Assembly (NCBI GenBank): GCA_017554405.1 | Contig: JAFZIK010000043.1 | Location: forward strand, 1 to 34,251 | Direction: 5' to 3' | Origin: Clostridia bacterium | Lineage (GTDB): Bacteria; Bacillota; Clostridia; Oscillospirales; Acutalibacteraceae | DNA length: 34,251 nt | Shown: piece after piece, positions 2,868 through 11,572 of the stretch | How the letters are laid out: each line of letters opens with the position of its first letter | How positions within the stretch are numbered: the stretch's first letter is position 1 | The notes under the pieces: model-generated | Database searches by the model: none | What the model was told of the DNA's origin: nothing | Seen by the model: the letters and a program-made list of their open reading frames with translations, nothing else | Position numbers and translations under genes: made by a program

Positions 2868-5597
2868 ATGAATCTATTGCGAAAAATGTTTGGCGATTAC
2901 AGCCAAAGAGAAATCAAAAGAATAAAACCGCTGGTTGATAAGACCCTTGCGCTTGAAGAGCAATATAGGGGCCTTAGCGACAGCGAATTAAGGAACAAGA
3001 CCGACGAGTTCAAATCACGGCTCGAAGCCGGCGAAACGCTTGACGACATCCTGCCGGAGGCGTTTGCTACCTGCCGCGAGGCGGGCGACAGGGTGCTCGG
3101 TATGCGCCACTTCCCCGTTCAGATAATCGGCGGAATTATCCTTCATCAGGGCAGAATAAGCGAGATGAAGACCGGCGAAGGCAAAACCCTTGTTGCCACC
3201 CTTCCCGCTTACCTTAACGCACTTACGGGCAAGGGCGTTCATATCGTTACGGTAAACGATTACCTTGCCAAGCGCGACTCGGAATGGATGGGCAAGCTTT
3301 ACAGGTTTTTAGGGCTTTCGGTAGGTCTTATAATCCACGGTATGGATAACGACCAGAAGCGCGAAGCCTACGCCGCCGATATAACCTATTGCACCAACAA
3401 CGAGCTTGGCTTTGATTATCTTCGCGATAATATGGTAACGTATAAGGATCGCAAGGTCCAGCGCGGGCATAACTTTGCGATCGTTGACGAGGTCGACTCG
3501 ATACTCATAGACGAAGCGCGCACGCCGCTTATCATATCCGGTCAGGGCAGTAAATCCACCGACCTTTACACCACCGCGAACAAGTTTGCGCTCTCCCTTA
3601 AAATGGTAAAGGTAAAGGAGACCGACGACAAGGCGACCGATGAACAGCAGGCGTTTGACGGCGATTACGTTGTTGATGAAAAGGCGAGGACCGCCACCCT
3701 TACCCCATCGGGCGTGGAAAAAGCGGAAAAATTCTTCGGTATAGAGAATCTTAACGACAGTGAAAACATAGAGATCGCCCACCACATCAACCAGGCGATC
3801 CGCGCCCACGGTATAATGAAGCGTGACGTTGATTACGTTGTTAAGGACGGCGAGGTAATAATCGTTGACGAGTTTACCGGTCGCCTTATGTTCGGAAGGC
3901 GCTATAACGAAGGGCTTCATCAGGCGATCGAGGCAAAGGAGGGCGTTAAGGTAGAGCGCGAGTCTAAAACTCTTGCGACCATAACCTTCCAGAACTTCTT
4001 CCGCCTATACGGAAAGCTTTCGGGCATGACCGGAACCGCCATGACCGAGGAAGCGGAATTCCAGGAAATATATAAGCTTGACGTTATCGAAATACCCACC
4101 AACAAACCGCTTATCCGCTTTGACGATGACGACGCGGTATATAAGACCGAGCGCGGCAAATTCAGCGCGGTAATAGCCAAGATAATCGAAGCGCACGAGA
4201 AGGGTCAGCCGGTGCTTGTTGGCACCGTTACAATCGAGAAATCAGAGCTTTTATCGGCGCTTCTTAAAAAGCAGGGAATCAAGCATAACGTGCTGAACGC
4301 CAAGCACCACGAAAAGGAAGCCGAGATAATCGCCCAGGCGGGACAGTTCGGCGCGGTTACCATAGCCACCAATATGGCGGGGCGCGGAACCGATATAATG
4401 CTTGGCGGTAACGCCGAATACCTCGCCAAATCCGCTCTTAAAAAAGAGGGGCTTAGCGAAGAGATAATCGCCGAGGCGACCGGCTTTGCCGAGACGGATG
4501 ACGCCGATATAATATCCGCCCGCGAAAAGTTCAAGGAGTATTACGGCAAGTATAAAGCCGAAATAGCCCCCGAAGCCGAAAAGGTCCGCGCGGCGGGCGG
4601 GCTTTGCATAATAGGCACCGAGCGCCACGATTCACGGCGAATAGATAATCAGCTTCGCGGCCGTGCGGGGCGCCAGGGCGACCCCGGTTATTCCAAATTC
4701 TATATTTCGCTTGAGGATGACCTTATGCGCTTATACGGCGGCGAAAGGATATCCGCAATTATGGATACCATGCGCGTTTCCGAGGATATGCCGCTTGAAA
4801 GCGGTCTGCTTTCCCGCACTATTGAGAGCGCCCAGCGCAAAAAAGAGGGCATGAACTTTGCCGCGCGTAAAAACGTTCTTGAATACGATGACGTTATGAA
4901 CAAACAGCGCGAGCTTATCTATGAACAGCGCAACCGCGTTCTCGACGGCGAGGACTTAAAAGATATGGTAATTAAGATGATAGACGATACCGTGGACGTT
5001 TACACGCGTATCTATCTTTCGGACGATGAAGTTCACGATAACTGGGATATAGCGGGGCTTCGAGAGCACTTCTTAGGTATGATAACCGATCAGAACGATC
5101 TGCATTTTTCGCCCGAGGAGCTCGGCAATACATCGCGCGAAGAAGTAGCAGAAATGCTAAAAGAAAAAGCCCACGCCATTTATGAAAAGCGCGAGGCGGA
5201 ATTCGGCAGCGAGCTTATGCGCGAGATCGAGCGCGTAATGCTGCTTCGCAGCGTTGATACCAACTGGATGGATCATATCGACAATATGGATCAACTCCGC
5301 CAGGGCATAGGTCTTCGCGCATACGGCCAGCATAACCCGGTTGTTGAATACCGCAACGAAAGCTACGATATGTTCTCGGCTATGACCGACGCGATACGCG
5401 AACAGACCGCAAAGCTCGTTCTTACCGTGCGCGTTAAGAAAGAGGAAGAGGTAAAACGCGAAAAGGTAGCCGAGGAGACCTCTACCGGCGAAAAGGCGGC
5501 GACCGTGCGCGGCAAAGGCGTTGTAAGCCTTAACGCCCCCTGCCCCTGCGGCAGCGGCAAAAAGTATAAGCGCTGCTGCGGTAAGGGGCTGGAATAG
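2868..5597 (+). CDS. secA: Preprotein translocase subunit SecA
   Basis: A 909-residue motor ATPase that drives secretory proteins through SecYEG at the cytoplasmic membrane. Visible are Walker A MKTGEGKT (GEGKT at residues 103-107), the [13 protein letters not shown] Walker B/DEAD region, [16 protein letters not shown] and the arginine-finger region [12 protein letters not shown] of nucleotide-binding domain 2. The C-terminus ends in a zinc-binding SEC-C tail, [13 protein letters not shown], with cysteines at about 892, 894, 903 and 904, which binds SecB or ribosomes in other species. ATG at 2868 is preferred because GAGAGG is positioned 7 nt before it; an in-frame TTG at 2853 would overlap this site. 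It lies 17 nt after apbE and may be read from the apbE promoter. Confidence 0.98.
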
Positions 5598-10514: not shown

Positions 10515-10970
10515 TTAATATTTTTTGATAATATAATCGATTACCTGGGGTCTTACGGCAAACATAACGGGGTCCGGAACCGGATCGGATTTATAATCAA
10601 CCTTTCCCGCTCGGCGTTTTTCAAGCGGGTTGCGTTCTTCCCATCGAAAAAAATCCAATACGGTTTTCTTTATTCTTGTCTTATCAGTCCAATTATTATA
10701 AAAAGTATTCAAATCGGCAAAAATCTGCTCAATAGATTCCTGCGCGATTTCAGTATGAAAATGTCCGTAATAATCAGATATAGATGAAAGATCGTTAATG
10801 AATACTCCGGGACGAATATAATATGCTTCTCTATCCCACTGACTGCCCTGAATAAAGAATACAAGCGTAAAGTCATTTTTAGTTTTTGTCCAACGCTTTG
10901 CCTTTTTTCTGAAGCCCTGTCTTTTTAATTCATTTGTTGCATATTCGATAAGTTCACTTTGCGAAACCAT
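10515..10970 (-). CDS. DUF4304-like protein, function unknown
   Basis: A 151-residue soluble protein. The pattern GFRKKAKRWTKTKNDFTLVFFIQGSQWDREAYYIRPGVFI resembles DUF4304 (thickened GF-x-W-x(n)-Q-x-S-x-W-x(n)-Y-x-x-G motif), a family found in scattered single genes, some near immunity or mobile loci; function unknown. ATG at 10970 is preferred with AGGTGA just upstream; the GTG at 10979 is part of that site. It has its own promoter (10987-11015), lies next to the hairpin array and is more A+T-rich than its neighbours. It is separated from manA by 138 nt with the manA promoter between, so the two are probably independent. Confidence 0.65.
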   Translation of the reverse strand: MVSQSELIEYATNELKRQGFRKKAKRWTKTKNDFTLVFFIQGSQWDREAYYIRPGVFINDLSSISDYYGHFHTEIAQESIEQIFADLNTFYNNWTDKTRIKKTVLDFFRWEERNPLEKRRAGKVDYKSDPVPDPVMFAVRPQVIDYIIKKY

Positions 10971-10986
10971 AATAATCACCTATATC

Positions 10987-11026: not shown

Positions 11027-11045
11027 AATCGGGCTGTGCCCGATT
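11027..11045 (-). terminator. Intrinsic terminator at the edge of the hairpin array
   Basis: AATCGGGC and GCCCGATT form a perfect 8-bp stem with a 3-nt loop. On the minus strand it is followed by TTTTTCTTTT. It would end transcripts coming through the array from the tRNA-His side before the DUF4304-like gene's promoter. Confidence 0.75.
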
Positions 11046-11277
11046 GAAATGATGTCGGCGCGAAGCGCAATACGTTTACGGCGGTAGCCGTAACATCGTT
11101 GCTCCGAAGGAGCACATCGTTTATGCCAAAGGCATAACATCGTTTGCCGTAGGCAACCTCGTTTTGTGTCCGCAGGCTGGTGTTTGCGCCGTTGGCGCAA
11201 AACGATGTCGGCGCTACGCACCGAACGATGTTTCCCCGCCTCCAGCGGGGAAAACGATGTTGTGTCCTGCGGACACA
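11046..11277. repeat. Array of about ten variable hairpins with constant 8-nt linker
   Basis: Successive stem-loops with unrelated stems include TTACGGC/GCCGTAA (11076-11093), GCTCC/GGAGC (11101-11113), TATGCC/GGCATA (11122-11136), TGCC/GGCA (11145-11155), TTTGCGCC/GGCGCAAA (11183-11201), an imperfect CGG...CCG stem (11209-11223), TTCCCCGC/GCGGGGAA (11232-11252) and TGTGTCC/GGACACA (11261-11277). The linkers are constant: ACATCGTT at 11093-11100, 11114-11121 and 11137-11144 and ACCTCGTT at 11156-11163 on the left; the exact reverse complement AACGATGT at 11201-11208, 11224-11231 and 11253-11260 on the right. The polarity flips near 11164-11182, where a broken half-hairpin lies. No protein gene is plausible here. 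This, with the flanking hairpins and the tRNA remnant, fills most of the gene-free stretch 10980-11494. Confidence 0.8.
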
Positions 11278-11281
11278 AACA

Positions 11282-11326
11282 CAACAAAGAAACCTCTTTT
11301 GGTAGACAAAAGAGGTTTCTTTGTTG
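11282..11326. terminator. 20-bp perfect hairpin next to the tRNA-like remnant
   Basis: Arms 11282-11301 and 11307-11326 are exact reverse complements (core AAACCTCTTTTG/CAAAAGAGGTTT) around a GTAGA loop. Its position relative to the duplicated tRNA 3' end is the same as that of the terminator at 11455-11495 relative to real tRNA-His, so it looks like a duplicated, diverged tRNA terminator. Confidence 0.6.
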
Positions 11327-11439
11327 GGGTGGAAGATGGGACTCGCTACGCGCCTTTCGGCGCTACACGCCCGCGGGCTCGGCAACCGTTCGCCGAAAGG
11401 TTGCCGTTTTGCGTTGCAAAACCGCCCTGTTCGAGTCCC
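11324..11439. repeat. Partial tRNA-His 3'-end duplicate enclosing four hairpins
   Basis: Positions 11324-11345 are identical over 22 nt to 11494-11515, which covers the encoded CCA, acceptor 3' strand and part of the T arm of tRNA-His. After that, sequence diverges: GCGCC/GGCGC (11350-11363), the palindrome GCCCGCGGGC (11369-11378), GGCAACC/GGTTGCC (11381-11405) and TTTTGC/GCAAAA (11407-11421). The block closes with CGAGTCCC (11432-11439), the complement of GGGACTCG at 11338-11345, so the whole block can fold as one large stem. No 5' half of a tRNA is present. Confidence 0.7.
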
Positions 11440-11454
11440 TTCATATATATACTA

Positions 11455-11495
11455 AAACAAAACAGCCACACCGCAAGGGTGTGACTGTTTTGTTT
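11455..11495 (-). terminator. Terminator of tRNA-His
   Basis: Arms AAACAAAACAG (11455-11465) and CTGTTTTGTTT (11485-11495) continue, after one mismatch, into CACACC/GGTGTG with a 5-nt loop. On the minus strand it begins directly at the tRNA 3' end and runs into TTTTAG. Confidence 0.75.
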
Positions 11496-11572
11496 GGGGT
11501 GGAAGATGGGACTCGAACCCACGATCTCTGGTGCCACAAACCAGCGCTTTAACCAACTAAGCTACATCCACC
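11495..11572 (-). tRNA. tRNA-His (anticodon GTG)
   Basis: The minus strand folds into a cloverleaf with the extra 5' G(-1) opposite C73 that identifies tRNA-His, acceptor GTGGATG/CTTCCAC (one T-T mismatch), anticodon stem CTGGT/ACCAG with loop TTGTGGC (anticodon GTG), T arm GTGGGTTCGAGTCCCAT, and an encoded CCA at 11495-11497. A promoter lies upstream and a terminator follows immediately. A 22-nt copy of its 3' end lies 170 bp downstream. Confidence 0.96.

Follow-up and report, generated by a model that had tools for sequence, protein, structure and literature searches.

A chain of ten hairpins at positions 11027-11281 of a 34,251-nt stretch of DNA from a Clostridia bacterium (the window, i.e., the whole stretch that was analysed) is best explained, with a probability of about 70%, as the end by which a small mobile DNA element is recognized, the window copy of which would measure about 255 bp and lack a helper gene. 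We infer both the mobility and the mechanism of movement from sequence. The array appears to belong to a family of two-arm hairpin insertion elements of gut Clostridia that are associated with proteins of the PF05635 family.

Organization of the array and its dispersed copies

A preliminary description, made from the letters of the window, had reported an array of hairpins with a constant 8-nt linker at 11046..11277. This array is present and slightly wider (11027-11281): nine perfect hairpins with stems of 4-9 bp and a tenth with one mismatch lie between 11027 and 11278, as compared with a mean of 1.44 and a maximum of 4 hairpins in 261 other 256-nt stretches of the window. The 256-nt array folds with z = -7.3 as plus-strand RNA, z = -7.3 as plus-strand DNA and z = -8.9 as minus-strand DNA, and none of 200 shuffles was as low in any of these cases. 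The linker and its complement occur eight times in the window, six of them inside the array, against 0.72 expected, and none of 100 shuffles reached eight. The linker is constant, as described, but its orientation does not alternate freely, being fixed for each arm: ACATCGTT is found in the left arm (11093, 11114 and 11137), with one variant (ACCTCGTT) at 11156, and its complement AACGATGT in the right arm (11201, 11224 and 11253). Since the linker direction is ordered by half, the array consists of two inverted arms.

The left arm (11027..11163, plus strand) comprises six hairpins joined by ACATCGTT-type linkers, located at 11027-11045 (AATCGGGC), 11058-11068 (GCGC), 11076-11093 (TTACGGC), 11100-11114 (TGCTCC), 11121-11137 (TTATGCC) and 11144-11156 (TTGCC). 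The linkers occupy 11093-11100, 11114-11121 and 11137-11144, followed by the variant at 11156-11163, and a single AATGATGT is found at 11048, at the far left end. Both arms meet at a centre marker, TTTTGTGTCCGCAGG (11162..11176, plus strand), 14 nt of which (11163-11176) form a perfect complement to 11266-11279, at the right end of the array. The right arm (11183..11278, minus strand) comprises four hairpins at 11183-11201 (TTTGCGCC), 11209-11223 (CGGCGC-tac-GCACCG, with the one mismatch), 11231-11253 (TTTCCCCGC) and 11260-11278 (TTGTGTCC), which are joined by AACGATGT, the minus-strand reading of ACATCGTT, at 11201-11208, 11224-11231 and 11253-11260. The tRNA-proximal end is formed by a terminal motif common to the copies, GTTGTGTCCTGCGGACACAAACACAA (11259..11284, plus strand). 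Linkers of opposite arms are predicted in silico to pair, and this predicted pairing is indistinguishable from inverted binding sites for one protein.

Adjoining the array, a terminator-like, perfect 20-bp hairpin with a 5-nt loop (11282..11326), which may be host DNA or element DNA, separates the element from a 22-nt copy of a tRNA-His 3' end (11324..11345, minus strand). This copy is identical to 11494-11515, at the end of the tRNA-His gene (11495-11571, minus strand), and is apparently the neighbour beside which the array is located. On the other side, a DUF4304 gene (10515..10979, minus strand; PF14137 match, E 2.9e-10) reads away from the array. A known RNA family was rejected as a candidate, as an Rfam scan of the window at gathering scores returned two tRNAs and nothing else. 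Chance degeneration is ruled out by the fold z-scores, the hairpin density and the dispersed copies.

The preliminary description had taken a lack of further copies and of compensatory stem changes as the mark of degenerate intergenic sequence; both were found, the copies comprising a second one in the same genome and others on 63 contigs elsewhere. The second copy, identified by its linker-pair pattern in the 1.67 Mb assembly of 71 contigs, is located on another contig (C40), on the opposite strand and behind tRNA-Gly. Its left-arm hairpins follow the same order as in the window, one of them (GCTCC) being broken, and in its right arm TTTGCGCC/GGCGCAAA is replaced by TTTGCGGC/GCCGCAAA, so that both sides of the stem have changed. 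Within the genus, the linker-pair pattern was present in 8 of 70 genomes, in one of which (G004) the linkers enclose no hairpin. Named genomes, when scanned for the end motif, gave 64 matches on 63 contigs of metagenome-assembled gut genomes, titled Clostridia, Oscillospiraceae, Ruminococcus, Bacillota or uncultured bacterium and in many cases from ruminant gut samples, while no exact match to the end motif was found on viral contigs. Together with the window, these finds form a set of 65 copies, all recognized by the terminal motif. The 60 copies that carry the centre marker with at most three mismatches were parsed, and the other five, three of which are cut by a contig end, were left out. 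A promoter-like pattern directed outward, toward the neighbouring gene, was found in 25 of the 60 parsed copies and an inward one in none. Passenger genes other than PF05635 showed few mutual matches.

Paired stems and strand-specific loops

The 60 parsed copies yielded 252 segments between linkers, 180 of them distinct, when segments shorter than 9 nt were left out of the pairing counts. Among the distinct segments, 771 of 873 outer positions (.88) are Watson-Crick paired, as compared with a mean of 0.378 and a maximum of 0.430 in 500 trials in which the 3' arms were swapped between segments. The stems had been described as unrelated; across copies, however, many of them recur in different genomes, the left-arm and right-arm sets being largely different. 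By their first four bases, the commonest left stems are TGCC, TACA, GATG, TGTG, TGCG and GGGC, and the commonest right stems TGAC, TTGC, TTTC, TATC and TGCG. A TTGCNN-type hairpin was found in 36 copies. In the first such hairpin of each, one pair is never mismatched, being A-T in 20, G-C in 14 and C-G in 2 copies, and the next pair is C-G in 31 and T-G in 4, with one mismatch.

A further regularity concerns the loops. On the ACATCGTT-bearing strand of the window's linker family, GNA loops were counted 22 times in left and 13 times in right arms and GNNA loops 17 and 9 times, respectively, and their complements, TNC and TNNC, were absent from both arms. Loops of the G..A type thus account for 39 of the 76 hairpins in left arms and for 22 of the 66 in right arms, the remaining 37 and 44 having other loops, and they favour the plus strand on the left and the minus strand on the right. 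The same rule was found in the two-arm arrays upstream of PF05635 genes (described below), where 156 of 251 hairpins carry a G..A-type loop or its complement. In 50 of these 56 arrays, TNC-type loops prevail in the first arm (86 vs 1) and GNA-type loops in the second (50 vs 0); five arrays, one of them from the window's family, are reversed (8 and 8, none contrary), one of these (L286) being assigned by a single loop, and one array has no scored loop. As arm type was assigned by majority, ten arrays with a single scored loop agree by definition, and the fair count is therefore that of the 36 arrays scored in both arms, 35 of which are fully consistent, the exception being L217. An order test on 23 loci picked by eye gave 33 to 0, which was reached in none of 20000 permutations; 16 of these loci are among the 56 arrays, so that the two loop tests are not independent. 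Two loci with the same linker (L255 and L274) have the array in opposite orientations relative to the gene, and the loops change orientation with it.

The pairing of the outer positions and the loop class of each arm support the earlier proposal of either selection on structure or a copying process. In DNA, loops of the GNA and GNNA types have an unusual stability. Very stable DNA mini-hairpins are the subject of related work (PMC10527192, in excerpt). The strand rule of the loops points to the recognition of folded DNA.

The array might instead act as RNA, with read-through from the tRNA gene or the leader of the divergent gene folding into a chain of hairpins for use as a scaffold, a decoy or a processing substrate, an explanation that we regard as rather unlikely. 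In its favour are the strong RNA fold (z -7.3) and the RNA energies, which prefer the linker strand in 48 vs 15 hairpins; DNA energies prefer the same strand, and the energy models do not discriminate between the two readings. Interior wobbles, too, lie on the linker strand, with 9 G-T vs 2 A-C in the left arm and 0 vs 4 in the right arm, in window orientation. Edge mismatches, by contrast, show no clear strand bias: the left arm has 0 G-T and 3 A-C, against the linker-strand trend, and the right arm 3 and 6, with the trend. Nor are the tetraloops held to the GNRA form known from RNA, as the third base of GNNA loops shows no clear purine preference (R 14, Y 12 in the window's family; R 28, Y 20 in other linker families). 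The two arms have their G..A loops on opposite strands, so that no single transcript contains both sets. The scaffold RNA that the preliminary description had listed among its options consequently fits less well.

PF05635 genes, neighbouring genes and putative insertion junctions

By tblastn, a PF05635-like gene (Avd-like "23S rRNA IVP") adjoins the array in 23 of the 65 copies. It does not adjoin the other 42, the window included, five of which have less than 350 nt of contig on that side. The statement that no gene explains the array thus holds for the window copy, where tblastn gave no PF05635-like match and the DUF4304 gene occupies the position that the PF05635-like gene has in the 23 copies, but not for the family. 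An array-adjoining protein matches PF05635 in Pfam (E 5.7e-27), the closest solved structures by sequence being 2rld (E 1.4e-19) and 2gsc (E 0.009). PF05635 was detected in 57 of 70 genomes of the genus, 53 of 148 of the class and none of 14 control genomes.

Upstream regions of PF05635 genes were then taken regardless of their sequence, from 59 searched loci and 80 of the genus matches in list order. Removal of one of these 139 loci without a located start and of repeated or short upstream regions left 131 distinct regions. Fifty-six of them contain a two-arm array with at least three hairpins, arrays with mixed linker order or fewer hairpins having been excluded. Thirty-two different linker words were found, for example AATGATGT/ACATCATT, AGTGATAT/ATATCACT, AGCTAAAT/ATTTAGCT, ATGAATTG/CAATTCAT and GTTATGA/TCATAAC; as the search demanded at least two copies of a word and at least two of its complement, reverse complementarity between the arms is built into this result. 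In a first set of 55 regions, 20 exceeded all of 60 shuffles in hairpin number, whereas the loci scanned among L188-L200, from other genomes of the class, did not exceed all 60 shuffles.

On a tree of 61 PF05635 proteins, which is based on few alignment columns and on linker families labelled by eye, the linker label changes 11 times (minimum 9), as compared with 37.0 times for shuffled labels, none of 200 shuffles being as low. Six linker families form one clade each, and ACATCATT and ACATCAC, which are one base apart, are mixed. As linker type follows the protein tree, array and PF05635 protein are apparently passed on together as one unit. Four PF05635 matches were found in the window's genome, including a short one at a contig end, and the three full genes adjoin arrays with other linkers (L166, L217 and L257), so that the window copy is without a helper of its own family in this assembly. 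Given that a PF05635 gene adjoins 23 of 65 copies with the same end and is absent from the window, we take the window copy to be non-autonomous. Neither a recombinase nor a nuclease was recognized in the element, and PF05635 proteins are not known to cut or join DNA.

Several further arrangements were noted at these loci. Two groups of PF05635 genes bear short AT-rich repeats instead of hairpin arrays (AATGCGTAATTCG in L159, L161, L163, L164, L170, L175 and L177; TATTCATTATTCATT in L172, L178, L187, L206 and L215). These repeats lie after stop codons or tRNA terminators, and each group, plus a few similar loci, forms one clade in the protein tree. Two loci, L058 and L093, share similar passenger DNA (75% identity over 310 nt), which directly follows the array in the former and the PF05635 gene in the latter, as if a single element had lost or acquired the gene. 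Near ACATCGTT arrays, additional two-arm arrays were found that have a different linker (TATATCATCA, ATGTAATCA or ATATCACT), in the left flanks of L081, L082, L115, L116 and L075 and also at L043, which shows that elements of several families cluster.

The arrays are often located behind tRNA genes. A tRNA gene reading toward the array was found in 42 of 63 copies scanned, always in that direction and for many isotypes, and none was found in the other 21. For arrays with other linkers and at least 400 nt of upstream sequence, a tRNA gene was present in 26 of 53, each time in this orientation; where no array was recognized, 25 of 73 PF05635 loci had an upstream tRNA gene. At 81 tRNA-element loci, 68 of 71 hairpins between tRNA and element begin at -3 to +1 relative to the CCA end, and their median stem score is 16, as compared with 12 for hairpins of control tRNAs. 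Control tRNAs carry such a hairpin in 59 of 114 cases, 35 of the 59 starting in the same range; these sets were sorted by a k-mer rule that placed some element-bearing loci (for example L174, L226 and L296) among the controls. As control tRNAs also have a tail hairpin, this hairpin may be host DNA, element DNA or both, and it may be an ordinary host terminator. A run-off copy of processed tRNA trailer RNA, suggested by the frequent start of the tail hairpin beside the CCA end, was rejected, since the same pattern occurs in control tRNAs and no reverse transcriptase was found in the genome. In four loci (L243, L263, L283 and L295), PF05635 elements with several linkers are located at or in the 3' end of a gene that was identified by eye as an apparent RNA uracil methyltransferase gene, and in L243 the coding sequence forms the 5' arm of the hairpin.

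A second type of small element was observed between duplicated tRNA 3' tails, in the window at 11324-11515 and in L052 at about 4150-4400. Its order is tRNA tail, terminator hairpin, inverted T-arm copy, hairpin core and tRNA tail. By eye, the inverted T-arm copy matches the respective tRNA (GGGACTCGAAC for tRNA-His, GGGAATCGAA for tRNA-Gly), and the hairpin core is similar at both sites (GGGCGG...AACGGTTG...AGCCCGYGGGCGTGTAGCG). In L150, L151 and L157, tRNA-Gln-like genes adjoining tRNA-His have a T-loop that is split (GTAGGTTCG / TCGAAGT...) by a hairpin-rich insert, possibly related to this second type.

Three protein genes that are followed by an element were chosen, and their ends were compared by eye in 30 genus loci each. 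Inverted host sequence was seen in 4 of 30 loci at ilvE and in 6 of 30 and 1 of 30 at the two other genes. Behind ilvE, relatives with 97.5-98% identity (L328 and L329) are unoccupied, having a plain terminator with a T-run. An element end is present in L327, L330, L333 and L334, and none was seen in the other 26 of 30 loci, one of which (L341) is cut by a contig end. In L327, AATTTTTTTAAGTTTATAA stands between the terminator stem and the element; the last nine bases of AATTTTTTTAAGTTTATAA are the reverse complement of host sequence upstream of the stem (TTATAAACT) and are absent from L328. L333 shows nearly the same junction before the end of the same family and is therefore probably not an independent event; host sequence resumes there after about 730 nt, at a site that lies 45 nt past the stop codon in L328. 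The stem of L330 is adjoined by 12-15 nt that could pair with the host flank; as the middle of this stretch equals the native T-run, only about seven bases are new, and a truncated end resembling the one of the window's family comes next. At the junction of L334, a coding stretch of 15 nt that also exists in the unoccupied L331 precedes its own perfect inverted copy and the element, eight of the 15 copied bases being native in L331 and the rest new. At the second gene (that of L246), ACAAATAATC-nnn-GATTATTTG is found in 6 of 30 loci, in L311 as TCTTTGATTATTTGC, and is absent from 24, and at the third (that of L264) a palindrome was seen in a single locus of 30.

The overlap of the ilvE copies with the native T-run and the end shared by L327 and L333 leave few independent events. 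These junctions suggest that an insertion event can duplicate a short piece of host sequence in inverted form, the simplest reading being that a folded-back 3' end would be extended over upstream host DNA at insertion. Alternatively, the palindrome may already have been present in the ancestor, or the element end may match the target by chance. For the window copy, the tRNA-His/ftsH neighbourhood gave separate matches in the listed relatives and no empty site. The apparent inverted host sequence at some junctions lends further support to a copying process.

The arrays could also be a neutral by-product of quasipalindrome correction, i.e., of template switching during replication, with the linker as a leftover repeat. 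Freely varying stems would be expected from such a process, and the inverted host copies suggest that palindromes can arise at such sites; we nevertheless consider this origin improbable, as it leaves unexplained the loop class by strand and arm, the inverted linkers, the match between linker and PF05635 tree, the tRNA neighbours and the dispersed copies. A vertically inherited, non-mobile regulatory or terminator cluster of tRNA genes would account for the location behind tRNA genes with a terminator-like hairpin, but is very unlikely in view of the many tRNA isotypes and additional protein genes, the two copies at different tRNAs within one genome and a linker-pair pattern restricted to 8 of 70 genus genomes, one of them without a hairpin between the linkers.

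Proposed mode of action and relation to known systems

The dispersed copies, tRNA neighbours, shared ends, associated gene and unoccupied relatives thus favour the mobile hairpin family over the other options of the preliminary description, whose interpretation is thereby supported in part. For the mobile element proposed here, the PF05635 protein, probably together with host enzymes, would bind the linkers and the looped-out hairpins of both arms, in cruciform or single-stranded form, and thereby bring the element ends together, DNA rather than RNA being the form recognized. Insertion would proceed via foldback of the target strand, the 3' end of which would be extended over upstream host sequence and then joined to the element. 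The stems could diverge because mainly pairing, loop and linker would be read, and new stems might come from compensatory change, exchange at the shared linker and possibly foldback copying. More speculatively, and with clearly lower confidence, the elements might represent a mobile class that has neither a recombinase nor a reverse transcriptase and relies on hairpin-primed copying for its movement. G..A-looped DNA hairpins on a family-specific linker would then be read by an Avd-like four-helix protein, and the target foldback would copy upstream host sequence, resulting in an inverted, not a direct, target duplication, at which the element would be joined. The same foldback copying would mint new hairpins beside the linker, so that arrays could grow and replace their stems with loop and linker fixed.

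Comparable features exist in several known systems. REP and REPIN sequences with their RAYT proteins and miniature palindromic repeats share with the arrays the occurrence as short, dispersed, intergenic palindromes, including copies without a helper; REP stems, however, are conserved in sequence, whereas the stems described here vary (180 distinct in 252 segments) and linker and loop type are kept. The intervening sequences of 23S rRNA are hairpin-forming insertions and likewise share the PF05635 protein, but the elements described here are located behind tRNA or protein genes and carry two-arm linker arrays. A link of the PF05635 protein to 23S rRNA intervening sequences, as well as its resemblance to the Avd protein of diversity-generating retroelements (DGRs), is described in excerpts of PMC10053308. 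In the BPP-1 DGR, the structure of the target hairpin/cruciform stem matters while its sequence is free, and the sense-strand loop consensus is GRNA (PMC3240598, in excerpt). With its free stem, G..A loop and Avd-type protein, as portrayed in these excerpts, the BPP-1 hairpin is the best precedent for the proposed recognition. The arrays described here have variable, paired stems, and part of their loops are of the G..A type. In contrast to the DGR target, the arrays consist of two inverted arms with a constant linker, and in contrast to GRNA, the loops are often GNA triloops or GNNA loops with a mostly pyrimidine second base (39 of 48 outside the window's linker family).

Group IIC introns insert at intrinsic terminators or attC motifs (PMC4424553, in excerpt), and stem formation matters in their target (PMC3240598, in excerpt). 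Insertion at terminators is the feature shared according to these excerpts, but the element described here bears hairpin arrays of its own, no intron reverse transcriptase was found in the genome and Rfam recognized only the two tRNAs in the window. No RVT_1 reverse transcriptase was found in the window's genome, a 97.5% complete assembly, and RVT_1 matches occur in only 17 of 70 genus genomes; therefore, neither a DGR nor a group IIC intron fits. Among the literature matches listed, whose scope was largely outside subscription papers and bioRxiv, no account of such arrays was found. A preprint has reportedly linked "hairpin mobile elements" to Avd-like proteins, a name that would fit the arrays described here. 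If it exists, the class has already been named, and what is added here would be the polarity of the loops, the match between linker and protein and the inverted copies at the junctions.

PF05635 proteins are common but little characterized. To judge from the arrays, the nucleic acid with which they interact may be a chain of hairpins that combines a linker specific to each family with a G..A loop on a fixed strand; this would make the function of PF05635 directly testable. If the inverted copies at the junctions arise at insertion, they would represent DNA movement in which the target's own foldback serves as primer. This reading would also account for the hairpin-rich spacers behind tRNA genes in gut Clostridia.
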